From Liolophura sinensis (taxonomy: Eukaryota; Mollusca; Polyplacophora; Chitonida; Chitonidae), in NCBI RefSeq assembly GCF_032854445.1, contig NC_088301.1:7622281-7686280 (forward strand): a DNA stretch of 64,000 nt, given 5' to 3'. Positions 19,501 through 63,896 of this stretch are shown piece by piece. The notes under the pieces were generated by a model, which saw nothing but the letters and a program-made list of their open reading frames with translations, searched no databases and was not told the origin of the DNA. A program made the position numbers and the translations under genes. Numbering within the stretch: the first letter of the stretch is position 1; each line of letters starts with the position of its first letter.

Positions 19501-22500
19501 ACCAATCAAATAAATATTTTGATATTTCTATTTCCTTGGTCCTGCTAACAAGAAGCAATGCCTTAAACACGTTTGGAGCAAGAAGCTATACTTCACTTTT
19601 TGTTTTTTCGTTATAGCTATTATCATACTGTTTTCTTGTTTTTCTTTTTTTAACTGGTGATAGGCTACAGTAATGCTGTGTCATATGAATTGTGCATCAC
19701 ATGGACTATTCAGTAAACAAGCAGAGACTGTGAATATGTACCTGCTCAGAAGTTCCTCCCAAGTCATGTGAGTTGTGTTTACCTCCCCTTTGTCCAGGAC
19801 CACATCCCCTATGATGGGATCTATCTGCACCACACTGGAAACAAGTCAAACAAAAATGAAAGCCCTTTTACTCACTAGTGGTGACCATCCAGGCTAATAT
19901 TACTACTTTAATAGTTTAAATAACTACTGCAAAATTTAAGTTTAGCATTTCTGAAGAGACACTTTTTACTTGATTCTGATTGATTCATCCATTAAAGGAC
20001 CAGTTGTGGAGTTTGATTTACCTATTGCAAACGTTTCTGACAAAACATCTGCAACAGCTATATTTGTACTCAAATGAATTTTATTTATGAACAATCTTTT
20101 ACATGGGAGTAAATTACCCAGAGAAAGATGTCTGGCAAGGAGTAACAGCAATTCATCTAGAATCTGTCAGTACATAGACAACAGCCTTTCTGCTTGATGA
20201 TATGAACATACCATCTAAAAGAGTTCTATTTCCTAAGCTCAGTGTTTAAGTCATAATGCCTTAAGCCAAAAGCAATTTATGCAGAGATGTTATGAAAAAT
20301 AGATGAACACAGTGTTGTGAATGTGAGCCAAATCGGCTTCCACTGTCATTTGCAAGACTGTCCACTGGCAGAGAATGACAGACTGATTCCAAATGTGCTA
20401 AATCAGTTAAAATATTAAATTATAAAATATAATTATTAAAATATAACATATATATGAGACAGAGAAAGTTAAACTTCATCTGAGGCTCATTTCTGATCAT
20501 GACTTTATTGCTGATACATACATATACTTTTACCAGTATATTATCCTGATCAGAGATACACATTGTGTAATAAAACAGATATCACCATGGTGATAGTTGC
20601 TCATGCTCAGTTGTTGATTGTGAAAGGAAAGAGTTATTAAAGGCAAAAAAGGGACTAACATTATATCAAATGTAAACATTTGCAAAATACAGAGATAATG
20701 TTTATCGTACACAGAGGTATATAATGAAATAAACCATATATGGCCTACATAGGCCTAAAAGACAAGGTTTATCCTGATCAGGGGAGTATACAGTAAAATA
20801 TTTTTACTTTCATAGATTTAATTCAAAAATTGGTTCACAGGAATTAATTTTTGCATAATTAATGAATGGAATTCTGGGGAAAAAATCTTAAAACTGTTCA
20901 ATTTTGCGAGTTATAATATGGCCGAAATTACTCAAGCATGTCAAACTGGTATTATCAAGGATGGGTATCATCCTCTTTTGTTTCCCGTGGTGTCGCTAAA
21001 AAATATAAATTCACCATTATCAGAGCCCATCATTCATGCTTGATTAACCCAGTCAAGCAACATGATTAGTTTGAGATTGTTTTCAGTTTTAATTGTCCTC
21101 TGTAGCTGGTCAGAAACTGTTATTAACCATTACATACAGCTGTCAAACACCCATTGAGCTGTTGTATACAGTTCATAATTTGTTAGAAGCTCAGTCATTG
21201 GTCCAAAGGAGACGCTTAGGCCAATGGGACAGCGTGTATCAAAGCAACATTCATTGGAAGCCAGCACTTGTTTTATACCCACTAAGCAGTAACACCAAAG
21301 ATTGTATATATTTAAAGCTTAACTTTAATTTAATTACAACCAATACACGCATGACCACTTCGGCTTGAATTTTTGCATTCAGTTTGAGCATTCGTACCAG
21401 AAAAACACAGAACTGAGTTTTTTTAACCTCAATATTCAGTTTTTAACTGAATTTTACCACCGTATACCAGGGCCTAAAGTTGACGTGTATGAATCCTTGT
21501 GACTGATCCCATATGTGCTAAATCAGGTAAAATATGGCTAATTACAAATGTCCAACAATAAAGACAATGTAATTTTCAGCTCAGAGCTATAAACTTCTCC
21601 GTCTGTGTGTCTGTTGGTTGATTCCTCAGCAGGCATGTTGGTCAGTCACTTTGTCCAGTCACTTGGTCCCGTCACCTGGTCCCGTCACCTGGTCCCGTCA
21701 CTTGGTCCGGTCACTTGGTCCCATCACTTGGTCCCATCACTTGGTCCAGTCACTTGGTCCCGTCACTTGGACCAGTCACATGGTCCAGTCACTTGGTCCC
21801 GTCACCTGGTCCCGTCACCTGGTCCCGTCACCTGGTCCCGTCACCTGGTCCCGTCACCTGGTCCCGTCACTTGGTCCCGTCACGTAGTCGAGTCACTTGG
21901 TCCCGTCGCTTGGTCCAGTCACCTGGTCCAGTCACTTGGTCCCGTCACTTGGTCCCGTCACCTGGTCGAGTCACTTGGTCGAGTCACTTGGTCCAGTCAC
22001 TTGGTCCCGTCACCTGGTCCCGTCACCTGGTCCCGTCAAGTGGTCCAGTCACCTGGTCCAGTCACTTGGTCCCGTCACTTGGTCCAGTCACCTGGTCTCA
22101 TCACTTGGTCCTGTCACTTGGTCCAGTCACTTGGTCCCGTCACCTGGTCCCGTCACCTGGTCCAGTCACTTGGTCCAGTCACTTGGTCCAGTCACTCGGT
22201 CCCGTCACCTGGTCCCGTCACTTGGTCCCGTCACCTGGTCGAGTCACTTGGTCGAGTCGCTTGGTCGAGTCGCTTGGTCCCGTCACCTGGTCCCGTCACT
22301 TGGTGCAGTCACCTGGTCCCGTCACCTGGTCCCATCACTTGGTCCTGTCACTTGGTCCAGTCACTTGGTCACGTCACCTGGTCCCGTCACCTGGTCCCGT
22401 CACCTGGTCCCGTCACTTGGTCGTGTCAACTGGTCCAGTCACTTGGTCCAGTCACTTGGTCCCGTCACCTGGTCCCGTCACCTGGTCCCGTCACTTGGTC

Positions 22501-25500
22501 CAGTCACTTGGTCCCGTCACTTGGTCCCGTCACTTGGTCCCGTCACTCCTTTATACCTATCTTTACATGGATCACTCAATTCATGAGTGGCCTTAGAGCA
22601 AGATGACATGAATAGTTTGCAGGATACTGGAGCTAGTTTGAAGTGTTGGTCCAGTCACTTGGTCCCGTCACTTGGTCCTGTCACTTGGTCCAGTCACCTG
22701 GTCCCGTCACCTGGTCCCGTCACTTGGTCCAGTCACTTGGTCCTGTCACCTGGTCCCGTCACCTGGTCCAGTCACTTGGTCCCGTCACCTGGTCCCGTCA
22801 CTTAGTCCCATCACCTAGTCGAGTCACTTGGTCGAGTCACTTGGTCGAGTCACTTGGTCGAGTCACCTGGTCCCGTCACTTGGTCCAGTCACCTGGTCCC
22901 GTCACTTGGCCCCATCACTTGGTCCCGTCACTTGGTCCAGTCACTTGGTCCCGTCACCTGGTCCCGTCACTTGGTCCCGTCACTTGGTCCCGTCACTTGG
23001 TTGTGTCAACTGGTCCAGTCACGTGGTCCAGTCACTTGGTCCAGTCACTTGGTCCAGTCACTTGGTCCCGTCACCTAGTCCCGTCACATGGTCCCGTCAC
23101 TTGGTCCCGTCACTCCTTTATTCCTATCTTTACATGGATCACTCAATTCATGAGTGGCCTTAGAGCAAGATGACATGAATAGTTTGCAGGATACTGGAGC
23201 TAGTTTGAAGTGTTTTGTCTTTTGTAACAATTTCCTGTGTAAGCAATTGTGGCACACAGTTGAACATGGTGAAAAAATTTAAAGACTGCAAAATTTACCT
23301 CTTTTTATCTTGTACTTGTAGGTCGTTAGCCTTCACGTAATCTGTGATGACGGCTCTGACATCAGTGGACGACAAAGCTGAGCCCTTACTGTAACAGAAC
23401 ATACCATTTATGTTAATTATTACATTATCTGGGAACAGATTTTCTCGTCTGTTAGTGCACCTGTGCCACTTCATAAGACAATGTGAAGAATAACATTTTT
23501 TAACATACCAAGATAGCTGCGTATACAAGAAAGAAATTTCTTTCACAGCACTTGAGTCTGTGGTAATTAAATCCTAAAGAACAAATCCAAAGTGGACCAT
23601 AACCAATTTACCACGTGAATTCCAATTATTCAAAACTTATCATGCCACTTGACTAGATGTTGTCAAAAAAAAAAGATGATGTGACATTGAAAAGACATCA
23701 TCACAAATGTGGGTGCCTTTAATGTTGGTTCCTTTCACATATTTTCATTTCAAATTTGTATTTGTCTCTACTTATGAAAAGTTAAACATGAGAAATTAAA
23801 CATGTAAACTTTTAAATGTACACACCAGGGATGTGTTTTACAAAGCTCATTTTAATGCTATGGTGACCTGTGTCTTTTCTAAATGTCACAAAGTGTAAGT
23901 TTTGACAGCTTTGTAAAAAAATTTTCACTTATGTGAGGGGAGTCAGTTAATGGATGGAGGCACTTAATTAATTAACTGGAGCACTATAGCTAAACCATTT
24001 AGACCTTTGGCCACAATACTGACAGGGGGCTCAGTTGGTTAGCGCGCTAGCACATTGTAATGACCCAGGAGCCTCTCACCAATGCAGTCACTGTGAGTTC
24101 AAGTGCAGCTCATAATGGCTTCCTCTCTGGCCGTACGTGGGAAGGTCTGTCAGCAACCTGCGGATGGTCGTGGGTATTTTGCAGGCTCTGCCCGGTTTCC
24201 TCCCACCATAATGCTGGCCATAGTCGTATAAGTGAAATATTTTTGAGTGCGGCGTAAAACACCAATAACATGAATAAATGAACGATACTGACAAATTGTC
24301 CCACCTGTGAGTTCGGCCAATACGCAAACCACGCTGGTGGAAAGCAACTGACCTTCAATGAGCCTTTAACAGACTGCTAAAACGATGACATGAGCGATGC
24401 CAACTGCTTTACTATTAACAAGGCACCACAGCACAGTTTTGACTCCATGTCTGGGGTGTCCTAGCTACATGTAGATTAGACGTCTAACCTGTATCCAGCA
24501 GGTCTGAACACTGGCAGCATGACTGAGGTCACCGAGTACATCTCCTGTATGCACGGAGGCTGAAATCCCTCATCCCCAGAAGACTTACTACCTTCTGCAT
24601 CAGGTTCCGGAAGGTCTGGTGGAGTGAAATCCCTGAAGCTGCCAGTGTGATCAACAAACAGATTAATGAAGTTAATGATCAAAAATTCCCTCCCTGGCTA
24701 AGTTGATAAAAGTTATATTGAATTTAGAAAGGTGTTTTGAAATTTGTTTGGAAGGCAGGGTGATATCTTACTGGAAGCACAGATTATTAGGTAGCACGGC
24801 TACCAAAGAGCTCGCCTGTAGGAGGCCTATGAATGCAAACTTCAGCTGAAAGCATAAAGCACTTAAATATTTACCTTAAGACCGAATCCAATACACAAGA
24901 AACAAAGTTGTGAACTTTGTATGCACACAGGGCATCAACAACTGAACATTTCCCTCGTCTTACTGTCATTTTACACATGTATGCAATCCCTGAGATTGCA
25001 TGATGCAGACGCTGATGGTAGCGCAGAAGCTACTGTATGCCTATACATAGTACAGGTGCACTAAACTGTACGTTTTATCATCAAAAACAATGCCCTAAAA
25101 CTTTTAATTGCCTCTAAAAATGTACTTTTTTGGAAGAAAAGTATGGGCACTTCTGTTACAGTGTGATCTTTGTTGGAAATATCTAGTTTTTGAGGTTTAA
25201 CAATGACAAATAAAAAAACAAGTTTTACAGGCATATGTGAAAGTGAAATCCTAGCTTATTGTTGTCAGTGTTCTTACATTAAGGGTATAGCATTTCACAT
25301 TACCATTTAAAACTTCTATGACATCTAATTCTACGTTTGTCTTCATTATTCACATATTTCAAAATTCAGTGCGTTTTGTTAATGTGCCAGCACAAAAACA
25401 CTTTCGTACCGAGTGATTTGTTGAATCTGACTTATCATATGGACATAGGACAAGCTCATTTCATTTACACCTAACTAAATACATGTAGATAAACAGATTA

Positions 25501-31500: not shown

Positions 31501-34500
31501 TACTAAGGAGATCATGTGGTCTCTAGATTCCGATCTTTCTTGCAGAATTGGAATCTACTAATACTGTCAGTAAGCGATGAACACAGTAAAATTATTTATT
31601 TGATTGGTGTTCAACATTAGACTCAAGAATTTTGCATTTGAAAAGTGGAGATCAGGTTTATGGGTGGAGAAAAAAAAGTACCCAGAGTAGGTCAGTGACC
31701 TTCATCAGTTACCTGACAAATCCACAGCCAGAAAAGAATTCAATGAAACCCACATAAAGAATTTTAGCAAGAAATGCTTGGCTGTAGACACACAACTTAC
31801 CATGATTTACATATAATTTACCATAGTGGGCATACAGCTTAACATAAATGACACACAACTTACCATAGTTGACATACAACTTATCATAGCTGACATACAA
31901 CTTACCATAACTGATGTACAATTTATCCTACATGTAAATGACCCATAACTTACCATAATCGGCACACAAAGTAACATAACTGACATACAACTTACCATAA
32001 CAGGAATACAACTTACCATAATTCATCTCCTACTATGTGGCAAATCTTAACTCCTTTTCCTTTCATTCCTGAATCTCTCATATCATCAGATGACATGAGG
32101 GCTACTCCTGTGGCAATGGGGGCTCTATGAGGGATAGAAAAGACACAAGGCATGTAATAAACATTAAATTCGCAGTGATTTGATTTGTTGCTTTATTGTG
32201 CCACAGCCAAAGGGGAAAACACACATATGATAATAGTGGCCAGTTTTACCGGTGGAGAAAGCCAGAGTACATCTAAATGGAGTAAACCACTGACACATCT
32301 GTTGAAGGTGAGCAGTTACTGCCAGACTTCATCTAAATGGAGTAAACCACTGACACATCTGTTAAAGGTGAGCAGTTACTGCCAGACTTCATCTAAATGG
32401 AGTAAACCACTGACACATCTGTTGAAGGTGAGCAGTTACTGCCAGACTTCATCTAAATGGAATAAACCACTGACACATCTGTTGAAGGCGACCAGTCTCT
32501 GCCAGACTTCATCTAAATGGAGTAAAGCACTGACACATCTGTTGAAGGTGAGCAGTCTCTGGTAGATTTCATGTAAGACCGCACCAATGTCCCCACAACA
32601 ATGAAGCACAGGAATCATGAAAATTCCCGACCAAGAGCGGGACTGAACCTATGACCCAGCAAATGAAGAGCATGGATTAAAGGTCATGACCTGCTCCCAA
32701 AACAGTAAAACTTATGAACACGAAAACTGATTATAAGCTAATGCAGGGTAAGTATGTGCAATTGTTGAAAGGCTTAACAGAAGTCGCATATCGAAAATTG
32801 GCTGTGACATTTCACTGGTTCACACCAAGAAATGAAGACCTGAGAGTGGGATTGCAAGTTCAAATCCTACTCTGGCTCGTCTGCCTCGGACTTTAATAAT
32901 ACCATGCAGCTGCAGGTTTGTCAGGTACTTGTCAAGGTGCAGTGGTTTTCTCTTGGCCCTGTCTCCCATCACATGATAGTAGTGTATATGTAAAACCTCT
33001 TCCTTCATTTTGCATAATAATATCTTTATTTATTGAAGGTAGCTCAGTAAATTTACAATGAAACTGTTCTTCCCCAAGACCTTCACAGAGAAAACAATAT
33101 ATAGGAAAGATGTAATTCAGAGTTTACTAAAAAAAAATACATCTATATACTTATACAAAACACGATAAAGCATCATGTAGATTGAAAAGCGGCGGTATAC
33201 ACATTCGTGTATACAAAAGCAACAACAAAGCCAATAGTGTTGTCACAACAACTATCCCAACCAGCAGGAGAAGCAGGTGGCTCCCCCGAAACAGGAAAAC
33301 TTATTTAAAGTCAAATTTTAGATGACAAACTTGGGCATGAATACCCACATGTATCAATATTGTCGAACTTTAGCATTAATTCCTACCTACTGCCAAATTT
33401 CGCCATGAAGACCTACCTACTGCCCACTAGTCTCACGGCACAGACCTCAGCTTTCTCTACGGAGGGCAGGTTATCACCAGCTCTTACAACCACCCCCGGC
33501 AACATCAGATCTGTAAACGAACACAACTGCATGTATTATTAATAAAATCATCAGAAGTCACAATTTGTTTTATCTTCTGACCTGAAAACCTTTTACAATG
33601 GGATACTGACAGAAATGGGACGTATTACGTCATTTCAGTGACACTGGACATTTCACTACAGCATCGACAGAGTGAAGTCGCAGTGGGTAGACCAATATGT
33701 CACAGATGAAACCGCAGAATGCAACATGTTTCCACATTAGCGCCACCTTTTGTGAGAGGAAAATCTGCTGGTGCCCCATTAAGACAATAAGCCAAATGAT
33801 GTCCAGCCTTTGCAAATAGAGAACCCTCCATTCAATAAAATTGTTCCTGGTCCCAAAGGGTGGCAGCATTCTTTCCAAAACTATTATCAAAATATATACC
33901 AATATATATGACAGTGACATTATGGTTGACAGAAACCTTGCAGAACCCGGGGGAACATCAAAAATGACGATGAGATATAGGGTTTTCAATGTGAATAGGC
34001 TGAAGAGTTGATTTATTTTTATTTTGACGTTTTTTGAACTGTTTTCTGTCAATTTGCAGCTGTGCCCCAAAACCTGTTTGCCCTCAGTACATTACATGGG
34101 CGCTAGTGAATGATGTAAGAGGCTGTATAATTTTACAGCATTTTTTAAAATTAAAATATTTAAAATCACGACTTTTACCAAAAAAAGGAAAATTAAATTT
34201 GTTTTGTCTTCAAAACAATCATCAGTTCTGCTGTCGCATTTATCTCTGCTTCAGTCAAACACCACATGATTACTCTGAATTTTCCAGTGCTCCAAAATGC
34301 ACACCTTGCTCACTTAAACATATCCTGTAATGTTAAAATGTCCCACAAAGAATAAACAAACTAAGTACAGTGCCAATAACGCGTAAATATTTTGCAGCAG
34401 TTTTGGTGGCAGGCATTTTGGAGGGTGTTTGTTTTTGACGTGATCCCTTCTGCACGACAGACATAAGACTTCTCTTCAACCCTGCTGTGTCTTTCCGAAT

Positions 34501-55400: not shown

Positions 55401-58400
55401 GGAAGTGCTCAGATAAACCACACACCACTGGAAAGTTTGTCTGTCGCATATGTGAAATATTCTCGAGTAGTGTGTTCAACAACAACAATCAAAGAAATAA
55501 ATAAATTGCACTACTAATCCGTCTTCTGCTAGATCATCCAAAATTTTGACAATTACATGTATCTAAAAAGGTGTTAGGGCTGGTCAGTATTATGCCCCAC
55601 ACTCTTGTTAGGGCTGATCACTAATATGCCCCACACCTCTTGTTAGGGCTGATCACTAATATGCCCCACACCTCTTGTTAGGGCTGATCACTAATATGCC
55701 CCACACCTCTTGTTAGGGCTGATCACTAATATGCCCCACACCTCTTGTTAGGGCTGATCAGTATTATGCCCCACAGCTCTTGTTAGGGCTGATCACTAAT
55801 ATGCCCCACACCTCTTGTTAGGGCTGATCAGTATTATGCCCCACACCTCTTGTTAGGGCTGATCACTAATATGCCCCACACCTCTTGTTAGGGCTGATCA
55901 GTATTATGCCCCACACCTCTTGTTAGGGCTGATCACTAATATGCCCCACACCTCTTGTTAGGGCTGATCAGTATTATGCCCCACACCTTTTATTAGGGCT
56001 GATCACTAATATGCCCCACACCTCTTGTTAGGGCTGATCAGTATTATGCCCCACACCTCTTGTGAGGGCTGATCAGTATTATGCCCCACACCTCTTGTTA
56101 GGGCTGATCACTAATATGCCCCACACCTCTTGTTAGGGCTGATCAGTATTATGCCCCACACCTCTTGTTAGGGCTGATCAGTATTATGCCCCACACCTCT
56201 TGTTAGGGCTGATCACTAATATGCCCCACACCTCTTGTTAGGGCTGATCACTAATATGCCCCACACCTCTTGTTAGGGCTGATCAGTATTATGCCCCACA
56301 CCTCTTGTTAGGGCTGATCACTAATATGCCCCACACCTCTTGTTAGGGCTGATCACTAATATGCCCCACACCTCTTGTGAGGGCTGATCAGTATTATGCC
56401 CCACACCTCTTGTTAGGGCTGATCAGTATTATGCCCCACACCTCTTGTTAGGGCTGATCACTAATATGCCCCACACCTCTTGTTAGGGCTGATCTCTAAT
56501 ATGCCCCACACCTCTTGTTAGGGCTGATCAGTATTATGCCCCACACCTCTTGTTAGGGCTGATCACTAATATGCCCCACACCTCTTGTTAGGGCTGATCA
56601 GTATTATGCCCCACACCTCTTGTTAGGGCTGATCACTAATATGCCCCACACCTCTTGTTAGGGCTGATCACTAATATGCCCCACACCTCTTGTTAGGGCT
56701 GATCACTAATATGCCCCCACACCTCTTGTTAGGGCTGATCAGTATTATGCCCCACACCTCTTGTTAGGGCTGATCACTAATATGCCCCACACCTCTTGTT
56801 AGGGCTGATCAGTATTATGCCCCACACCTCTTGTTAGGGCTGATCACTAATATGCCCCACACCTCTTGTTAGGGCTGATCAGTGTTATGCCCCACACCTC
56901 TTGTTAGGGCTGATCAGTAATATGCCCCACACCTCTTGTTAGGGCTGATCACTAATATGCCCCACACCTCTTGTTAGGGCTGATCACTAATATGCCCCAC
57001 ACTTCTTTCCCTCATAAACTTGAACAGTTTTCGTGTTAAAGTGTAGTGTAAAACATCCAATAAATAAACACCACAAGATATACACCATAAGATTTAGATC
57101 CTATAGATTATTCAAATATATTTAATAAAAAAAGTTTCGGTGTTGTTTTCATGTTTTAACTAATGTTTTTAAGAGTGATTTAAAAACACCGATCTCTTTC
57201 CATTTTGGAAGTCATCATTTTTATATCAGAAACCTCAGTGATTCCTGCTTTGCATCTGAAATATTTTTGTTTATGTGACATTAAGCTTAAATAAATCATT
57301 CACAGTTATAAAAGTGAAATAATGTTGAGTATCAGAATTCGAAGCACAATGTATGTTCGGTGTGTACATGTCATAATGTCTTACCTTTTAAATGTACAGG
57401 AAATGTTCAGTGGCATTTATCACCTGACCATAAAGATCATGGTATGAATCAAATGGTTTATAGCAGAATTTTAATTAGACGCTCTTTTTTCAGTAGTGCA
57501 TAGCATAGTTATCTCTTATCTATAGCATGATCTTTTCAAGTTCCAAAGTCTTTTTATATTTCTAATACGGGTATGTGGGGAAGTTTCACATAAAATCATC
57601 CCCTGAGGGCTTTATAAATCATACAAGACTTCATATATTGAGATTTGAAAATATCTCAACTTAGTTTTAGTAAAAGTTTCCTGTTTGCTTGTGAAAGATC
57701 TTGGAAACACCTTTACATGCATTTAAACTCTTAGCCTAAATATAAAGTTTATTATCTGCTAATAGTTTTATAGATAATGTAGTCAAAATGCATGTAAATG
57801 TTCCACATAGTTATTATTTAAAGATACTTCAGTCTAGTCTGATGAAGCTTTTTAAGATAGAACTCTCACATTCTCTTACATTTTATTAATCAGTGGGCTA
57901 AATATATAGTTTCCTTTTTTTGTAGATGTTTGTAATAGTATTTTATGCAATGCAGAAATATAGTCATTTTTTTTTCAAATTAAATGGTTTCAAATTTTAT
58001 TTGTTGATCAACAGTGTTGTTTTAGTATGGATTAGTCTTATTGAAATGTGGTCTTTGTGATGCCTGGAAAATGAGCAAAATTGTGTTGTACATTGTCAGT
58101 CAGGTAATAAAATAATATATAAAACATCTCCTCTTGTATAAAGCTCTTGTAAAATTGCATTTCTTTGCTGGGCTCTATTCTGAGATTGAAGGTAGGTTTG
58201 AAAACTTTCGCTTAATTAAAAACAAAGCTTGCATGCTGCAATTACACCCAAGCAAAGTCAAGTGCCAGTAGGATTGGTGGGAGTTTTAATCCATTGGACA
58301 GTTGTCCCCCTTGATGAGTGCAGGCTACCTCCCTTTATTTCTCAGTCTGGACTGTTCCATGTCAGCAGTGATCTCGTCATCACTTTTATCTGTACATTTT

Positions 58401-61400
58401 AGGCTCAGGAAAGTCCAGGAGCTCTTCAAAGGAGTCAGCAGGTAGATCTAAAAGTAAATCTCCCAAGAGGGGAGACTCACCAAAGAAACCTGACAGTGGG
58501 AAGAAATCGCCAAAAATTAGAGGTGGGTGCTACGAAAGGGTTTGGACTGATTTCACAGTATTTGTGTGATATGATAGGGGATATTTCATGATATATTAAC
58601 CAACGTAATCAAAACACTTGTATCAGCCATGGAAAGGAACATATACTGCTGGAGATGAAAACCATTTGGGCATACTGGTTATAACTTACATGAGCGTGTT
58701 GCACGGGTATACGTCCTGATCTATTGTCGAGAAGATAAATATTTCCACGAGCCTGAATGCAGTTGCTTGTTCAAGGCAAATTGACCAGTCAAAATCTTTG
58801 AATTTTCTATGAAATTTTATAGATAAATATGTGGGTGTGGCATCATTTTTCTTTTATAAAGAACTGGGTACATGGCTTTACTATTTAATCAATATATACA
58901 GTCACGTATTTACCAGTTAGCATTTTTGTCTTTATTTTTCTTTAGATTTCAGTAAAAATTGTGATAAAAAGGAATATAACAAAGCCATGATAAAAACAAA
59001 ATGTTTGAATTCATTTTCTGACACACCCAAACATGGGACTAGTCCGAAAAAAGGTGTCCAGACAGACCTTTCTGAAGCCAGTTTATTGGAGCATGATGTC
59101 CAAATTTATTTCCTTTTCCTATCTACCCCATGTTCAGTGTTGTAAAAACCGTGTCCAAATGTCACTGATTTTTCATTCTGGACAGCTTAACAAGTATCTG
59201 CCTAACAGTGAGCACTCAGGCCTAGTTTGATTTGCCCATTCTTGATTTCTAGAGTCCTCATCCAAAACATCCAAACGAGTGAAGTCTGGTAAGAAGGCGA
59301 AGACCCCGGAGCCTGAACCAGAGCCTGAGGTACCAGCGGAACCCCCGGGGCCACCTCCGCCTCAACCGGGCTCTGAGGAGTGGGTCTTTGTGGATGAGCC
59401 GCTGTCTCTGGTAAGACACAAGCACTGTAGGTCAGATACGAGCAATGAGTATATACCAGCTTCATGCAAAGTTGTGTTGGTGTGTTGCAAGAAATCAGAA
59501 CTGTTTAGTGCACCAAGCCAGGATAAGGGGACATGTTCACATGTACAGTACCAATAGTTTCATTGCCTGTGAAGGATTGTTGTGGAATTGTCTTCAAAAG
59601 AAATAAATACTGGCCCCGACAGCACAGTTGGTAAAGCGTCTGCTTCAGAAGGCGGTGGACCCAGGGTCGATCCTGGGTCGGGTCACGCCTTAAGACCTCA
59701 AAAGAGGAAGTTGTAACTTCCTTTGCTTTAGCGTTCAGCATGAAGGGGATAGTGCACAGTGGGGACAGCACTGCACAATGCATTGGCATTACTGAAAGAA
59801 GAAGACTTTTTATCACATAGTTTTTTTTTTACTATTTACAATTTCTCTGATCAATACAGAAATGGACCCAATCCTCACTTCAGCTCAATTTTTAGGTCAC
59901 ATACCTAACCACATCATTTTTTCCTCAGGAATTGGCGCACATATTGGCTAAGCATTGGGAGGTAGTGGAGAATACCTACATCTCCAACGGGAAATTCATG
60001 TTTCGTAAAGTGAGAGAAGAAAGAGAAAACATCATAAGATATTTCTTCCAAATAAGGTAATGTTAATGTCTCAATTACTAATAGCAATCTGAATGATTTA
60101 TAATGTGTCACTTTTTTGTTTTTCCATGTTTTCCGGTTTTTTTTATCTTTTTTTTTCTCAAAGTCAGCAGTGAAGTTGACTTTGAATTGAATTGCTAATA
60201 TACTGACAGAAGTAATCTTTAAAATATAAGAAAAGGTCTGAGTTATTTTGTCTTTTGACAACACAAAAATTTGTCAAAGTAAGCATATGCATACTACAGT
60301 TAACAGTCCTTGTTATTTATTTCACCTACACTATACTACAATAAATACTTTCAAATACAGTCAAAAGTGAAAATCTCGCTTTTTTCTATTACATATAATA
60401 ACTCTATTGGCTTTACAGACAGGACTATCTGGCTTACTTAAGAAGACCTGATCATAAGCAGGAGTTTGTCACTCAGTGGCAGAAGGTAGGCCTATATAAT
60501 AATAATATGTTCATCAAAGATATTACAGATCTTTTATCTTAAATATGGCATGTAAAAGTTTTCAGAGTCACATAAATTCATTAAAATGATCCTTTTGATG
60601 TCAACACTTAACATTTTTGGATAAGAATTTAATCGAAAAAACTCTTAAGTGGCCCCTTAAGGTGAATGAGTCCCATCAGAATCAAGCAAAATGTGTCTCT
60701 TTGCAAAATGCTTAACTTCAGGTGAATTACTCTGAAAGAGGATGCATTCTCTGAAGAATATTTCCTAGTACATGTAGATCTGCATCTCTGCTTCTGTTTA
60801 TTGTAATTTCAGTTAACTTTTGCAAACATAATGGTTTAAAGTTTATTAAAACATAGCTCAAATACTCTAATGTAAGATTTTTGAGTCATGAATTTTTTTG
60901 TTTTTTTTGTTTTTTTTTGTTATAACAGGACTACAACAGCATTCCTGATGACATGCGTGATGACGAGGAGACAAAAGCTGAGCTCCACCAGCGTACAGAT
61001 GATCTGCGTGAGAGACTGTGGAGTATCTGCGATGAGCGTAAGGAACAGGCTGAGGAGGAGAGAACAAATATCATGGCTGATGGGTGGTTAGACGACAGAC
61101 TGGGAATACTGAGCAACCACTACATCACTCTTATGCAGGTATATGATTCTTATGTCTGACTGTCTGTCTGTCTGTATGCTGATGGGTGGTTAGACAAAGG
61201 CAGACGGTACTGAGCAACCACTACATAACACTCATGCAGGTCTATGATTCTTATGTCTGACTGTCTGTCTGTCTGTCTGTATGCTGATGGGTGGTTAGAC
61301 AAAGGCAGACGTTACAGAGCAACCATTACATCACCACTCATGCAGATATATGATTCTTATGTCTGTCTGTCTGTCTGTATGCTGATGGGTGGTTAGACAA

Positions 61401-63896
61401 AGGCAGACGGTACTGAGCAACCATTACATTACACTCATACAGGTATATGATTCTTATGTCTGACTGTCTGTCTGTCTGTATACTGATGGGTGGTTAGACA
61501 AAGGCAGACGGTACTGAGCAACCACTACATCACTCTTGTGCAGGTCTATGATTCTTATGTCTGACTGTCTGTCTGTCTGTCTGTATGCTGATGGGTGGTT
61601 AGACAAAGGCAGACGGTACTGAGCAACCATTACATCACTCTTATGCAGGTCTATGATTCTTATGTCTGACTGTCTGTCTGTATGCTGATGGGTGGTTAGA
61701 CAAAGGCAGACGTTACAGAGCAACCATTACATCACCACTCATGCAGATATATCATTCTTATGTCTGTCTGTCTGTCTGTATGCTGATGGGTGGTTAGACA
61801 AAGGCAGACGGTACTGAGCAACCATTACATTACACTCATACAGGTATATGATTCTTATGTCTGACTGTCTGTCTGTCTGTATACTGATGGGTGGTTAGAC
61901 AAAGGCAGACGGTACTGAGCAACCACTACATCACTCTTGTGCAGGTCTATGATTCTTATGTCTGACTGTCTGTCTGTCTGTCTGTATGCTGATGGGTGGT
62001 TAGACAAATGCAGATGGTACTGAGCAACCACTACATGACTCTTTTGCAGGTATATGATTCTTATGTCTGATTGTCTGTCTGTATGCTGATGGGTGGTTAG
62101 ACAAAGGCAGACGGTACTGAGCAACCATTACATCACTCTTATGCAGGTCTATGATTCTTATGTCTGACTGTCTGTCTGTCTGTCTGTATGCTGATGGGTG
62201 GTTAGACAAAGGCAGACGGTACTGAGCAACCATTACATCACTCTTTTGCAGATCTATGATTCTTATGTCTGACTGTCTGTCTGTCTGTATACTGATGGGT
62301 GGTTAGACAAAGGCAGACGGTACTGAGCAACCATTACATCACACTCATGCAGGTATATGATTCTTATGTCTGACTGTCTGTCTGTCTGTATACTGATGGG
62401 TGGTTAGACAAAGGCAGACGGTACTGAGCAACCACTACATGACTCTTTTGCAGGTGTATGATTCTTATGTCTGACTGTCTGTCTGTCTGTCTGTCTGTCT
62501 GTATGCTGATGGGTAGTTAGACAAAGGCAGACGTTACAGAGCAACCATTACATCACCACTCATGCAGATATATCATTCTTATGTCTGTCTGTCTGTCTCT
62601 ATGCTGATGGGTAGTTAGACAAAGGCAGACGGTACTGAGCAACCATTACATCACACTCATACAGGTATATGATTCTTATGTCTGACTGTCTGTCTGTCTG
62701 TAGACTGATGGGTGGTTAGACAAAGTCTTACCGTCGCTTGTCTCTACTGATTTAAAAAAAAGAAAAAAAAACATTTTGTTCACAGGGATCATATTTTACA
62801 GCTTCCTGCAGCAAGTCTTTAACATCGGTTAATAGCACAGGTCTGTCTGTCTGTATGCTGATGGGTGGCAATAGCACAGTCTCTCTGTCTCCCTTGTCGT
62901 CATGAGCTCCATATGTGACAAAGGTGTTTGAATGCTGTTTATGTATGTACATGTTATATACAGTCCATGTGACTCTAGTTCCACTACAGTGCTATAGGAT
63001 TTAAAATGTAGCACATTTATTGCTTTGGTAAATACTTTTGCCATATCCAGTTCCAGTAGTAAACTTGTGTATTTTGTGTTGTGGCAGTGTGAAGTGGACA
63101 GATTCCAGGACACGGTGCGGCTGATGAGGGATTATTACCGTGGCATGGAAGGGCATGTGCCTGATGAAACTAACCCAAAGTTTGCCAGACTGCCCCTTAT
63201 AGAGGTCAGTAAGCATTTGGGGGACAAATATCTGTAGACCCAGCTTCTGGAGTCAGTAATGTAGAAACTTCTTTTGAGGTTGATGCTTATATTTGCATGA
63301 ACTCAAACTATTACATGTGGTTCAGCTCAAATATTGGCCTGGTATCTGAAGTAAGGTACAAATAATCTCAGGGCTTAAAGGCGAACACTAAAATAAAGTA
63401 TATATGAGATGAGCACCGGCCATTAAACACCAGGCTGTTCTTAAAGGTAGCATTACCTATGTGTGTTTCATAGCTCTATTTACTGTAAACCTTTTGGAGC
63501 TTTAATCCACCTTTTCCAGTAGAATTTATGCATATAACTGTTATGGAAACGATGCTAAAAATGATTTCTTTGTGTCATTTTATGGTATGTCATGATTTTG
63601 TAGCTGCCTGTGGAGAGGCCTAACTCACCAGACAAAACTCCAGCTACCAGTGATGGAATGCCTTCTCCAATCCCTAACACTGATGCAGAGCCACCGTCTA
63701 CTCCCAAAGACAAGGATAAGTCACCCCAGTCCAAGTCCCCAAGGGCTAAGTCACCTAACAAGGACCGCTCCCGTTCTCCCAAGGGTGGTGGCAAATCTCG
63801 CACCCCCTCAGGCAAGAGGCGTGACAGGAGTAAAGAGAAGAAGGAAGAGAAAGAAGGAGGGGTAGCAGATACAGGCGCAGACAGTAAGAGACCAAG
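37357..63896 (+). CDS. SPEF2: SPEF2 (sperm flagellar protein 2, KPL2 / CPC1-like): 30 exons, C-terminal part outside the window
   Basis: SPEF2 is a large axonemal protein of the central-pair apparatus (C1b projection; CPC1 in Chlamydomonas), needed for flagella and motile cilia. Exons: 37357-37414, 37833-37935, 38811-39063, 39423-39640, 40020-40113, 40470-40484, 41477-41562, 42613-42825, 43691-43881, 44471-44658, 45448-45613, 46565-46681, 47030-47132, 47485-47573, 48883-48988, 49923-49994, 50277-50422, 50828-50937, 52865-53136, 53639-53774, 53867-54008, 54884-54964, 55227-55302, 58403-58522, 59253-59410, 59929-60056, 60419-60485, 60929-61138, 63088-63204, 63604-63896. Order: calponin-homology domain (about 1-105), coiled coils, split adenylate-kinase-like domain (Walker-A-like GKLFSGKT about 587-594; VLDGYP about 786-791), acidic and Ser/Lys-rich linkers, conserved helical region. 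All phases agree except two apparent one-base losses, in exons 8 and 9. The usual C-terminus (EF-hand region) is not reached. Confidence 0.95.
37833..37935 (+). CDS. SPEF2: SPEF2 exon 2 (CH domain)
   Basis: (D)SKAFARDFASGYLIGEVLYK then YQLQDDFDQFSQN. Matches the family CH domain (FA--F-SGYL-GEVL-K--LQDDF--F). Acceptor TTTCCAG, donor GTAAAA. Confidence 0.97.
38500..38690 (+). mobile_element. SINE-4 fragment in SPEF2 intron 2
   Basis: CATTGAAGACCACTTGTGGT, GTAAGTGGAAAAGTTTGTTA, ACTTGTCAGAGGCCCGAGGT, TTGACCACCATCG and tail CAATCAAATAAATAAATAAA. This is the 3' half of SINE-4 in plus orientation. Confidence 0.65.
38811..39063 (+). CDS. SPEF2: SPEF2 exon 3 (CH domain end)
   Basis: 253 bases. TADSKLNNFTRIEPVLHLLG, DTNVARDIITEKHGVATRLM, YQLFIALTNKKKANLTGVAM, ending at KE with donor GTACGG. 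Very close to the family sequence (AKLNNF-R-EP-L-LLG, VA--IITEK-GVAT-L-YQL-IAL). Confidence 0.98.
39423..39640 (+). CDS. SPEF2: SPEF2 exon 4 (first coiled coil)
   Basis: 218 bases. RLKHITPRQTDLNLDALASH, FHEKRIQMEETAFKERFEEE, ending EMIARIQ at donor GTGAGT. Family pattern RL-H--PRQTD-NL at the start. Charged heptad-like helix follows. Confidence 0.97.
40020..40113 (+). CDS. SPEF2: SPEF2 exon 5
   Basis: 94 bases. AAAVHIPKPPAHKSSKSIAA then RKAEMKKKEAQ. Matches the family IQAA---IPKP segment. Phase 2 in, 0 out. Confidence 0.95.
40470..40484 (+). CDS. SPEF2: SPEF2 exon 6 (15-base microexon)
   Basis: EALIQ between acceptor TTTATTTCAG and GTGATT. It is phase 0 on both sides, so it can be included or skipped without a frame change. 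The family has a longer helical segment here (EA--V---I-KFE), which supports inclusion, but it is short and unconfirmed. Confidence 0.55.
41477..41562 (+). CDS. SPEF2: SPEF2 exon 7
   Basis: ETCDSIAQFEKRMKMILPPS then KMMGDDGS, ending phase 2 at donor GTAATA. Acceptor ATCTTGTAG. Helical segment with a phase-consistent frame. Confidence 0.88.
41885..41945 (-). mobile_element. SINE-5 fragment
   Basis: AATTATGGCTTAACTCCACC, CGGCAATATTTCAGCCATAT and TGTGGCATGA match 15,028-15,100. Confidence 0.5.
42321..42457. mobile_element. MITE-like element with GGGCCCAGTT terminal inverted repeats
   Basis: Left end GGGCCCAGTTACACAAAGCG, right end (as read) CTTTGTGAAACTGGGCCC, which is its reverse complement with one mismatch. 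Length 137 bp, in SPEF2 intron 7. The ends are typical of short non-autonomous DNA transposons. I could not define a target-site duplication with certainty. Confidence 0.65.
42613..42825 (+). CDS. SPEF2: SPEF2 exon 8 (apparent frameshift)
   Basis: EATDLEVFSVRADEEGHITV, then SNDDYIGKI in one frame. From about 42,727 the homologous sequence continues one base off: QKRLNEDESARNEREKRRRK then VLVDQMRAHQAQE. The family has SDDEYIKKIQKRL followed by -REKRRR-LLMDQ--AHEAQ, so both halves are real and one base is missing near the A-run GGGAAAATCAGAAAAGG. Read literally, the frame stops at about 42,803. Donor GTTAAT is weak. Confidence 0.88.
42915..43210 (-). mobile_element. SINE-4 with tRNA-like head, SPEF2 intron 8
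   Basis: Tail ATTTATTTGTTTATTTATCT on the left, body TTGACTTCTGACAAGTTATT and AGTGCAAGACACATGACCCT, and on the minus strand TAGGTTCAAATCCAGCC near 43,165-43,180, a good pol III B box. This copy best shows the tRNA origin of the family. Confidence 0.75.
43285..43495. repeat. 33-bp minisatellite, about 6 units
   Basis: GCTACAAGCTTACTACTGAC then ACACCACTGCCTT, with an alternate CTACAAGATAACTACTGATA form. In SPEF2 intron 8. Confidence 0.85.
43691..43881 (+). CDS. SPEF2: SPEF2 exon 9 (second apparent frameshift)
   Basis: EARREEMLVNRLMRQSQQER then RIAVQLLQARREKDVI in the first frame; then NRIIREQQYEQRRLRDFEEA and MNREN one base off, after CGAAAGAGAAC near 43,800. The family reads INRLMRQSQQERRIAVQL and NRI-RE-Q-E-RRL-DF--A in one frame. 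Either one base is missing or two are extra. Read literally, a TAA follows at about 43,817. Confidence 0.9.
44165..44460 (+). mobile_element. tRNA-derived SINE-like element
   Basis: CAAGATGTGGGTTCAATGCC at 44,231 is a B-box-like phrase, and the element ends in a CAATCAGTCTGTTGATCAAT-type simple tail. Family not assigned. Confidence 0.4.
44471..44658 (+). CDS. SPEF2: SPEF2 exon 10
   Basis: EMARLAKLEYEEQIRKDQEL, LAAERAEAKYRRHYDSCQDV, LLNMVDFACKVAEYRELTN. Family pattern F-EQ---E---HD--A-ERA-A-Y--HY--C-------VDL--KVA-YR-LTN. The donor is the overlapping GTAAGC at 44,659. Confidence 0.97.
45448..45613 (+). CDS. SPEF2: SPEF2 exon 11
   Basis: (K)LVPPKLIRDWSSLFVAGHP then LYEVIPEA and RQKLLDEGDFVEYK. 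Family pattern L-P-KL--DW--LF-A-P-YE and LLD--DYEEYK. Confidence 0.96.
46565..46681 (+). CDS. SPEF2: SPEF2 exon 12
   Basis: NMVGEWQPKENCEVTGPPRD then NPILGHVVQRIFDMVNPPS. Family pattern NMVGEW and ILGHI--R-. 39 codons, phase 0 on both sides. Confidence 0.96.
46800..46827. repeat. GT/G simple repeat
   Basis: GTGTGTGTG followed by about 18 consecutive G. A polymerase-slippage-prone tract in SPEF2 intron 12; length likely uncertain. Confidence 0.95.
46828..46930 (+). mobile_element. SINE-1 head-only fragment
   Basis: TTGTCTGTGGCCAAGTGATT (A-box part), CACTAACCCAAGAGCATTTC, and TTTGAGTTCAAATCTAGCCC (B box). The body is absent. Confidence 0.6.
47030..47132 (+). CDS. SPEF2: SPEF2 exon 13 (adenylate-kinase-like P-loop)
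   Basis: PPPPAPKFPPFPIKACVLGK then LFSGKTSCIQKLAE. The LGKLFSGKTS stretch is the Walker-A-like loop of the ADK-like domain and aligns with KGCLLGKTLSGKT in vertebrate SPEF2. The Gly spacing differs from a strict GxxGxGKT, as in the family, so catalysis is uncertain. Confidence 0.97.
47485..47573 (+). CDS. SPEF2: SPEF2 exon 14
   Basis: HRLQLLNSESLIEEAIQAFK then DREIEVLPP, donor GTAAGTC. Family pattern IL--D-LV-EAIQAF-D and EVLP. A 33-bp array begins about 30 bases after the donor. Confidence 0.96.
47605..48170. repeat. 33-bp minisatellite, about 17 units
   Basis: AAACCAACAACGAGCAGGAC then CTATTGACTATAT. Variants are CCAGCGGG/CGAGCAGG and ACTATATA/ACTGTATA. It lies in SPEF2 intron 14. Because 33 is a multiple of 3 the unit stays open on both strands (plus: IDYINQQRAGP; minus: LLVYIVNRSRW), giving several spurious frames. 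Confidence 0.95.
48883..48988 (+). CDS. SPEF2: SPEF2 exon 15 (Glu/Pro-rich linker)
   Basis: EEERPVEEECSPEASQQPPA then EPPVEPPSTTETNQT. Low complexity, phase 0 in and 1 out, with good splice sites. The family has a variable acidic insert here. Confidence 0.88.
49923..49994 (+). CDS. SPEF2: SPEF2 exon 16 (linker)
   Basis: (E)TEITAGEPQLKDDKASDTS then KAKE. Phase 1 on both sides, so a possible cassette. Acceptor TTAACCACAG, donor GTAAGG. Confidence 0.85.
50277..50422 (+). CDS. SPEF2: SPEF2 exon 17 (linker)
   Basis: (E)TPSEPQSRAEQPVPPTPQE, PPKTASTSSLPASVKTGSEQ, KLTEDDNSE. Pro/Ser/Thr-rich and probably disordered. Acceptor has a strong T-run ending TTTTTCAG. Confidence 0.9.
50828..50937 (+). CDS. 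SPEF2: SPEF2 exon 18 (ADK-like domain continues)
   Basis: PELSARAKLGGKAAKCLKRG then RPVDDPIVVEILVEAI. Family pattern RA-LG-K----LKKG--IPD-L-V-I-V-AI, the NMP-binding side of the ADK fold. Confidence 0.96.
51040..51205 (+). mobile_element. SINE-like 3' remnant
   Basis: ATGCATATAAGTGAAAAATT, CTTGAGTACAACAG and a GTCAGTCAGTCAACCAGTCA tail resemble the 3' end of SINE-1-type elements. In SPEF2 intron 18, where nothing else is recognised. Confidence 0.4.
52865..53136 (+). CDS. SPEF2: SPEF2 exon 19 (ADK-like domain, with an internal in-phase donor)
   Basis: QVPEGTGWVLDGYPTNYTQA, KLLEKALTGFDST, then a Gly/Lys- and Pro-rich insert, then GIDVVILLDVPDDLCLKRAS and GRY. VLDGYP and DVVILLDVPDD are the LDGFPR- and VI-LDV-like ADK motifs. 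A second donor (CCAGGTAAGAG, exon end 53,001) has the same phase as the final donor and would remove 45 residues in frame. Confidence 0.95.
53639..53774 (+). CDS. SPEF2: SPEF2 exon 20
   Basis: (Q)SLLKDYHYHQEFKPPPEGS, KVIPVEDPAHDQEQVQY. Phase 1 in, 2 out. The ADK lid region in the family (Y-TAHED and DQ-QHRI patterns). Confidence 0.93.
53867..54008 (+). CDS. SPEF2: SPEF2 exon 21
   Basis: (R)IAGFLDSWAKLEKWYKKFG then NLRVIDASQPMETVQLEVEK and VFEETLAK. Family pattern RI-GFLDNW--LE-W. End of the ADK-like domain. Confidence 0.95.
54120..54481. mobile_element. MITE with about 50-bp terminal inverted repeats, SPEF2 intron 21
   Basis: Left TIR 54,120-54,171 includes TTTGTACGGTGGGTATTTGG and CAACTTTTGGTATTTAT; right TIR 54,428-54,481 includes ATAAATACCAAAAAGTGATC and CCCAAATACCCACCATACAA, its reverse complement with a few mismatches. 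Length about 362 bp, AT-rich interior, no open frame. Consistent with a non-autonomous DNA transposon. Confidence 0.85.
54884..54964 (+). CDS. SPEF2: SPEF2 exon 22 (Glu/Pro linker)
   Basis: LQGPKEEPESVPVASEEAPA then EKVEEKP. 27 codons, phase 0 on both sides. Low-complexity linker after the ADK-like domain. Confidence 0.88.
55227..55302 (+). CDS. SPEF2: SPEF2 exon 23
   Basis: AEVPPEPEPKEEVVEEKVSK then KGSRT. Phase 0 in, 1 out. Acceptor TTAACTAG, donor GTAATG. Confidence 0.88.
55570..57005. repeat. 35-bp minisatellite with two interspersed unit types, 41 units
   Basis: Unit TTAGGGCTGATCACTAATAT then GCCCCACACCTCTTG (type A) or TTAGGGCTGATCAGTATTAT then the same end (type B). I count 41 units. 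The order begins B-like, A, A, A, A, B, A, B, A, B, A, B, A, B, B, A, B, B, A, A, B and ends with a B-like unit (AGTGTTAT), an A/B hybrid (AGTAATAT) and two A. It lies in SPEF2 intron 23. Confidence 0.96.
57400..57441 (+). CDS. SPEF2: Possible SPEF2 cassette exon (42 bases)
   Basis: Acceptor TTTAAATGTACAG, open 42 bases (G)NVQWHLSPDHKDHG, donor GTATGA. Phase 1 on both sides, matching exon 23's end and exon 24's start, so inclusion would add 14 residues without a frame change. No homologous segment is known to me. Could be chance. Confidence 0.25.
58403..58522 (+). CDS. SPEF2: SPEF2 exon 24 (Ser/Lys-rich)
   Basis: (G)SGKSRSSSKESAGRSKSKS then PKRGDSPKKPDSGKKSPKIR. Basic low-complexity linker like the family's GKGKKG--KRKGSPKGKS region. 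Phase 1 on both sides. Confidence 0.9.
59253..59410 (+). CDS. SPEF2: SPEF2 exon 25
   Basis: SSSKTSKRVKSGKKAKTPEP, PPPPQPGSEEWVFVDEPLSL. The PKPGSEEWVYVNEP motif is diagnostic of SPEF2 and anchors this part of the gene. Confidence 0.97.
59606..59790 (+). mobile_element. SINE-2, 3'-truncated, with intact tRNA-like head
   Basis: GGCCCCGACAGCACAGTTGG and CCAGGGTCGATCCTGGGTCG (clear B box), then CCTCAAAAGAGGAAGTTGTA and CAGCATGAAGGGGATAGTGC. It shares the body of 7,711 and 9,655. In SPEF2 intron 25. Confidence 0.85.
59929..60056 (+). CDS. SPEF2: SPEF2 exon 26
   Basis: ELAHILAKHWEVVENTYISN then GKFMFRKVREERENIIRYFF. Family pattern L---L---WE-IENSYI----------R-----YLY-IR. Confidence 0.96.
60419..60485 (+). 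CDS. SPEF2: SPEF2 exon 27
   Basis: (R)QDYLAYLRRPDHKQEFVTQ then WQK. Family pattern F--FL-RPDHKQ-FV-QWQ. Phase 2 in, 0 out. Confidence 0.97.
60929..61138 (+). CDS. SPEF2: SPEF2 exon 28 (source of the downstream array)
   Basis: DYNSIPDDMRDDEETKAELH, QRTDDLRERLWSICDERKEQ, then MADGWLDDRLGILSNHYITL and MQ. Family pattern DDEETKAELHQR--DLR-RLW-ICD-RKE-AE-ER. The last 60 bases and the donor GTATATG recur about 15 times in the following intron. Confidence 0.98.
61139..62745. repeat. About 100-bp tandem array derived from the end of SPEF2 exon 28 and its donor, about 15 units
   Basis: Each unit has GCTGATGGGTGGTTAGACAA, GGCAGACGGTACTGAGCAAC, CATTACATCACTCTTATGCA, then GGTCTATGATTCTTATGTCT and a (GTCT)n run. 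The first three parts are a decayed copy of the exon 28 end (compare GCTGATGGGTGGTTAGACGA and TACTGAGCAACCACTACATC at 61,078-61,130), and CAGGTATATGATTC is its donor. Unit length is 91-113 bp, varying with the (GTCT)n run. A last partial copy lies near 62,855. In-frame stops follow each donor copy. Confidence 0.95.
63088..63204 (+). CDS. SPEF2: SPEF2 exon 29
   Basis: CEVDRFQDTVRLMRDYYRGM then EGHVPDETNPKFARLPLIE. Family pattern E--RFQDT-RLL-DYY-GME--IP----FTR-PL. Phase 0 on both sides. Confidence 0.97.
63604..63896 (+). CDS. SPEF2: SPEF2 exon 30 (last one inside the window)
   Basis: LPVERPNSPDKTPATSDGMP, KDKDKSPQSKSPRAKSPNKD and RSRSPKGGGKSRTPSGKRRD, ending SKRPR at donor GTAAGA. A basic SP-rich disordered segment. 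The gene continues beyond the right edge. Confidence 0.93.

Follow-up and report, generated by a model that had tools for sequence, protein, structure and literature searches.

A mirage-type minisatellite, most likely neutral, at an exon-intron boundary of SPEF2 in Liolophura sinensis, one of several in its neighbourhood

Minisatellite-like tandem repeats that lie over exon-intron boundaries, on either side, are known in amphioxus as mirages. They have been described in Adh3, the globin genes BflGb6 and BflGb9, TnC and PGBD5 (PMC3087553; PGBD5 and TnC from PMC3902484). Many of their units, but not all, keep the AG/GT signal, and the clusters are unstable in length between haplotypes or tissues; regular splicing is not reported to be disturbed, yet the units are regarded as possible cryptic sites (PMC3087553). 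A related process, for which there is a review (PMC3443670), is the gain of introns when genomic segments that carry AGGT are duplicated in tandem. The subject here is a tandem array that begins inside a coding exon of the SPEF2 gene of Liolophura sinensis and continues into the following intron. It lies in a 64 kb stretch of contig NC_088301.1 (the window) that is without any N, in a contig of 60 Mb and an assembly of 609 Mb. Judging from its units, the array is most likely a neutral minisatellite of the mirage type, one of several nearby. Mirages under that name were not found reported outside amphioxus in the part of the open-licence literature that was surveyed, and the portions surveyed of the literature on SPEF2 introns and splicing, including PMC6930371, hold no description of the array.

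The array occupies window positions 61077-62725 (1.65 kb) and consists of 16 full units of 97-113 bp and a 21-nt partial one. Tandem Repeats Finder gives 61076-62725 with a period of 101, 16.2 copies and 87% matches, and as a second solution a period of 401 with 4.1 copies. The first unit, u00, spans the exon-intron boundary, and both its exon part (62 nt) and its intron part (40 nt) are repeated in the 15 intronic units u01-u15. The original prediction, made from the same DNA, had put the recurrence of exon end plus donor at about 15 times, and this count is borne out. A 23-nt pattern that spans the donor, CAGGTNTATGATTCTTATGTCTG, occurs 12 times, and in 0 of 100 shuffles. The spread in unit length owes much to a variable (GTCT)n tract. 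The intron extends from 61139 to 63087 and the array takes up approximately 81% of it; the claim that the array fills the intron thus applies to most of its length, not to the whole.

Which of the copies came first? Joined to the next exon, the exon at 60929-61138 matches sperm flagellar protein 2 (PDB 9ijj; E=1.9e-41, 109 residues) and CPC1 (7n6g; E=3.2e-13); a Pfam scan of this exon gave nothing above cut-off, only sub-threshold matches to unrelated families. SPEF2-like open reading frames (ORFs), read by eye, begin at about 37.8 kb in the window. As the homology alignment continues across the exon junction, the donor between 61138 and 61139 is the one that keeps the protein, and as the exon matches SPEF2 homologues, the exon end is the ancestral sequence, from which the intronic units derive.

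The intronic units differ from the exon by a common patch: in 15/15 of them AAAGGCAGACGGTAC replaces the exon's GACAGACTGGGAATAC, a net change of -1 nt, with small variants in u02, u06, u14 and u09. Unit u00, at the edge, where a mirage cluster would be expected to escape homogenization, is without the patch and otherwise shows no fixed difference from the copies: there are 0 in the 66 columns compared outside it, with the variable (GTCT)n end excluded and a base inserted in three of the units taken out beforehand. The same frameshifting patch in all 15 intronic units indicates that growth started with a single altered copy. There is also a higher-order structure. Two blocks of 401 bp, u02-u05 and u06-u09, are 98.0% identical; for u02-u04 and u06-u08 the figure is 99.7%, with u03=u07 and u04=u08 exactly. 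Going by these near-identical blocks, some of the growth probably took place not long ago, and the array is probably unstable in length, as had been anticipated. The (GTCT)n tract, proposed earlier as the core of slippage, does vary by unit, but the array is built from whole units of ~101 bp and from 401-bp blocks, and the tract is therefore at most a local slippage site. One unit searched against the species' own 609-Mb assembly gave at least 16 matches, all inside this array; none was returned beyond it, although DNA counts of this kind can be lower bounds. A short detached piece of array sequence further downstream (Table 1), flanked by a 10-nt direct repeat, may be a secondary insertion.

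How did the array originate? The preferred reading, held with a probability of about 0.82, is that of a minisatellite that arose from one boundary duplication and was amplified as a patched intronic copy, with no evident role in SPEF2. The seed would be a single tandem duplication in which ~100 bp around the 5' splice site of the exon were copied. A duplication across the boundary had been predicted, and it is supported by u00, which spans the boundary, and by the lack of fixed differences outside the patch. The first copy would have been kept by coding selection as the real exon end, whereas the second, landing in the intron, would have acquired the frameshifting patch of ~15 nt. Unequal exchange or replication slippage could then have amplified the patched copy by one to four units per step. 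Duplication, patch and amplification presumably followed in this order. The pre-mRNA is expected to be spliced at the first donor, with the decoys leaving with the intron, and they may be tolerated since exon definition favours the donor that adjoins a full-length exon. The length of the array would be expected to differ between individuals. Minisatellites cover 9.9% of a 264 kb neighbourhood (the window plus 100 kb on either side), and for this reason ordinary neutral minisatellite growth is probable.

The array furnishes the intron with numerous donor-like sites, as had been noticed from the sequence: 40 later GT sites (61189-62715) score 2 or more, and the in-frame TGA soon after the true junction, also foreseen, is reached from 40/40 of them. 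At the donor position of the 15 intronic units, the true 9-mer CAGGTATAT occurs five times, CAGGTCTAT also five times and CAGGTGTAT once; the remaining four are without GT. The GT is thus retained in 11/15, so that a large share of the units, though not every one, preserves a splice signal. The scores, computed with a donor position matrix, are 6.94 bits for CAGGTATAT, 2.67 for CAGGTCTAT, 6.21 for CAGGTGTAT and 12.72 for the consensus CAGGTAAGT. Among 190 GT sites in 60929-63085, six reach the score of the true donor, namely the true donor itself and its five identical copies. The true SPEF2 donor is weak, and in one copy out of three it has an equal. The claim that some decoys are as good as the true site holds for these five identical 9-mers and fails for CAGGTCTATG, which was also named (2.67 against 6.94 bits), and for the 4/15 without GT.

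Are the decoy donors maintained? Extra conservation was not found in the SPEF2 array, where the donor 9-mer has an identity of 0.919 and the unit as a whole a mean of 0.945. For SPEF2 (16 units including the partial one), a fraction of 0.74 of all 9-nt windows is conserved at least as well as the donor. For the neighbouring arrays described below this fraction is 0.33 for SGL (15 units), 0.30 and 0.63 for two ENPP arrays (10 and 48), 0.28 for an EGF-like one (6), 0.83 for the array at 32261 (4) and 0.85 for Laminin G (3); three of the seven arrays hold 3-6 units, and there the test has little power. The constraint expected of regulated alternative donors was not seen in the seven arrays, many 9-nt windows being equally conserved. 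Donor 9-mers are neither clearly more nor clearly less conserved than the rest; this argues against regulation being maintained, and likewise against decoys being purged. Pseudo-exons within the units were considered as well and set aside.

The SPEF2 array has company. With redundancy removed, Tandem Repeats Finder lists 72 arrays with a period of at least 20 in the 264 kb, and several of them start inside a coding exon and repeat the exon end plus donor. Besides SPEF2, donor-side arrays are present at six exons with Pfam support above the curated cut-off, representing SGL, Phosphodiest (three exons), Laminin_G_2 and EGF (Table 1). A Fibrinogen_C match falls under the cut-off (18 vs 22), and a second EGF-like exon (contig 7748207-7748496) was assigned by eye. 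In the Pfam scan, which covered 10 peptides, the peptide of the array at 32261 was unmatched, and one SGL exon precedes an array that could not be linked with that exon.

Individual neighbours differ in make-up. At the SGL (regucalcin-like) exon-end array (contig 7531152-7531859) the frame is open through about the first seven 45-bp units; 45 is a multiple of 3, and decoy donors there would therefore add 15-residue repeats instead of a stop. The array at 7541817-7542495 (SGL2) has GTAAGT and was set aside, as it could not be tied to an exon. At 7559785-7562403 there are ~44 BLAST copies of an ENPP-like exon end plus donor, with what appears to be a dispersed repeat like a short interspersed nuclear element between them. 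An acceptor-side array is found at 7604975-7605519: upstream of an ENPP-like exon, the 5' boundary of that exon is matched 11 times. The region 7744685-7755450 is apparently one gene, which we take from its domain make-up to be CNTNAP-like; as many as four of its exons have a donor-side array. Within the window, a 60-bp x 4.9 array at 32207-32556 has units that end in AAG/GTGAGC and follows a possible exon with a good acceptor. The array (32261-32556) was rejected as a second SPEF2 case: neither PDB nor Pfam gave a match to the exon-like stretch, and SPEF2-like ORFs start only at ~37.8 kb. Other long minisatellites of the window are at 55572-57007 (35 bp x 41) and 21645-23114 (13 bp x 111).

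Table 1. Features of the SPEF2 array in the window, and Pfam-supported exons with donor-side arrays in the neighbourhood
Feature	Position (window)	Strand	Details
SPEF2 coding exon (exon 28 of the original prediction)	60929..61138	+	70 codons, phase 0/0; reading frame and SPEF2 homology
Unit u00	61077..61178	+	last 62 nt of exon, true donor, first 40 nt of intron
True 5' splice site CAG/GTATAT	61139..61144	+	protein kept across junction LMQ/CEVDRF; donor score 6.94
In-frame TGA	61157..61159	+	would be taken in if a later donor were used; ORF 60926-61159
Intronic units u01-u15	61179..62704	+	15 units, each with the common frameshifting patch
Truncated last unit	62705..62725	+	21 nt; unit parsing and Tandem Repeats Finder
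Detached array fragment (putative secondary insertion)	62841..62869	+	29 nt; (GTCT)3 and unit junction; 10-nt direct repeat AATAGCACAG at 62831 and 62870
Next SPEF2 exon (CEVDRFQ...LPLIE)	63088..63204	+	acceptor AG 63086-63087; 3' end approximate
SGL exon, donor-side array			Pfam 53.9 bits; 45-bp units, 15.7 copies
Phosphodiest exons, donor-side arrays			76.2, 78.6 and 36.3 bits; 88-bp units in two paralogues, ~50-bp in the third
Laminin_G_2 exon, donor-side array			23.2 bits vs cut-off 22.9; 122-bp units
EGF exon, donor-side array			30.7 bits; 59-bp units, 2.2 copies

How frequent are such arrays at exon ends? A set of 50 exons from three ENPP and two SGL genes, with borders set by paralogy (Pfam borders in three of the 50), was hand-picked from 65 merged intervals; the 15 omitted were dispersed-repeat-like, array sequence or unclear. 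The choice of genes is biased, as these were noticed through their arrays. Downstream copies of the donor boundary are present at 5/50 exons (6/51 with SPEF2), one of the five cases being a single 63-nt match, and upstream copies of the acceptor boundary at 2/50, one of them with two matches only, at ~72% identity. An acceptor-side ORF scan, judged by eye, gave no convincing peptides, whereas the paralogy comparison did give the two acceptor cases. Paralogues may differ sharply: for the ADH exon there are 44 downstream BLAST matches in ENPP gene E1 and 0 in both E2 and E3, and for the FPNHYSIVT exon it is E2 and E3 that have matches and E1 that has none. In a control of 400 random positions, the criterion applied to the exons gave a downstream copy at 42, of which 13 resemble an array start, defined by little array sequence directly upstream.

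Three observations weigh against the preferred reading of a neutral minisatellite that grew from one boundary duplication. In the right-hand exon-derived part of the unit, 5/7 variable columns are third codon positions (p=0.03; 5/8 and p=0.08 with both parts), a lean that plain neutral decay does not predict; past coding selection on the copies was considered on this ground and dropped, the bias being too weak. The other two observations concern donors, and both comparisons are exploratory. Donor boundaries carry copies at 5/50 exons against 13/400 random array starts (Fisher p=0.039), and donor motifs scoring 9 or more occur in 7/48 array consensus units against 2.4 in shuffles (P 0.005) and 2.2 in genomic segments (P 0.01). 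These excesses could mean that exon-intron boundaries are preferred seeds, with transcription at the 5' splice site, R-loops or selective tolerance starting the arrays. This seems rather unlikely. The raw donor rate of 5/50 equals the raw random rate of 42/400, and neither the acceptors (2/50 vs 13/400, p=0.68) nor donors and acceptors pooled (7/100, p=0.09) are clearly off the background; donors and acceptors compared with each other give p=0.44. The motif excess over shuffles is unclear at scores 7 (P 0.23) and 8 (P 0.12) and slight at 4 (P 0.045) and 6 (P 0.04), and only 3/7 strong-motif arrays belong to Pfam-supported exons (SGL, one Phosphodiest and Laminin_G), the other four not being tied to an exon. 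In addition, all five genes came to notice via their arrays. Given that other exons in the 264 kb have like arrays, the most likely source of the SPEF2 array is a generally high rate of tandem duplication in this genome, which would account for most boundary arrays, perhaps together with a mild preference for donors.

Could the array act on SPEF2 itself? It had been suggested that it tunes splicing: competing donors would lead a share of the transcripts into a premature stop and so to decay, the share depending on the length of the array. Such a rheostat would fit the weakness of the true donor (6.94 against 12.72 for the consensus), the five decoys identical to it, the TGA at 61157 taken in from 40/40 later sites, the concession that mirage units are possible cryptic sites (PMC3087553) and a reported link of minisatellites to splicing decisions in C. 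elegans (PMC4039745). It is nevertheless distinctly improbable. Decoy donors are no better conserved than the rest of the unit, and there is thus no sign of tuning; the GT is gone in 4/15, and amphioxus mirages are reported without disturbance of regular splicing (PMC3087553, PMC3902484). An assembly artefact, or a collapsed or expanded repeat, is very doubtful. Tandem arrays are classic sites of misassembly, and only the assembly sequence was examined; but the units differ in many columns and have an ordered block structure, the array is just 1.65 kb long, its contig measures 60 Mb and the window is free of N, and the same structure is repeated at unrelated exons. Scarcely credible is a dispersed repeat inserted in the intron, with an exon end that resembles it through exonization. 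The genome is repeat-rich, but SPEF2 and CPC1 from other lineages align with the exon end residue for residue, and the genome search gave no unit match beyond the array.

Whether boundary-grown arrays occur throughout this genome, at several per cent of exon ends, with splicing that reliably picks the first of as many as forty or so near-identical donors, is a proposition for which the chances look about even. If it is true genome-wide, boundary arrays would steadily, and with rapid turnover, feed the growth of introns and the birth of new ones, and they would amount to a natural experiment on spliceosomal choice among equal donors. Each array stacks many near-identical donors behind one exon, a setting in which to ask whether proximity alone decides, and the paralogue pairs with and without arrays permit a before-and-after comparison. 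Frequent arrays of this kind would also extend the mirage idea past the amphioxus genes and would provide live cases of intron growth by tandem duplication.

Amphioxus mirages and the SPEF2 array are alike in their boundary-spanning units, in splice signals retained by many units but not all, and in near-identical blocks within a cluster. They differ in extent: two BflGb6 haplotypes have 6 and 3 units, whereas there are 15 intronic units here and 44 BLAST matches at a neighbouring exon. Human introns reportedly arose from tandem arrays with splice sites in every unit, yielding alternatively spliced introns (Zhuo 2007, cited in PMC3087553), and the SPEF2 units likewise carry splice sites. A further human study reportedly concerns tandem repeats that modify gene structure (PMC2812944), and one in C. 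elegans minisatellites linked to splicing decisions (PMC4039745); both may include related cases. Alternative splicing is reportedly a feature of the human arrays, and mirages belong to other genes of amphioxus; the SPEF2 array is that of Liolophura sinensis, as seen in one genome assembly. With intron gain by tandem duplication it shares the duplicated AGGT and the possibility that sequence between copies is removed by splicing with the protein unchanged. That process makes a new intron, whereas the SPEF2 array sits at an intron's edge, and, because the acceptor side is outside the array, the duplication lengthened an intron and did not evidently create one.
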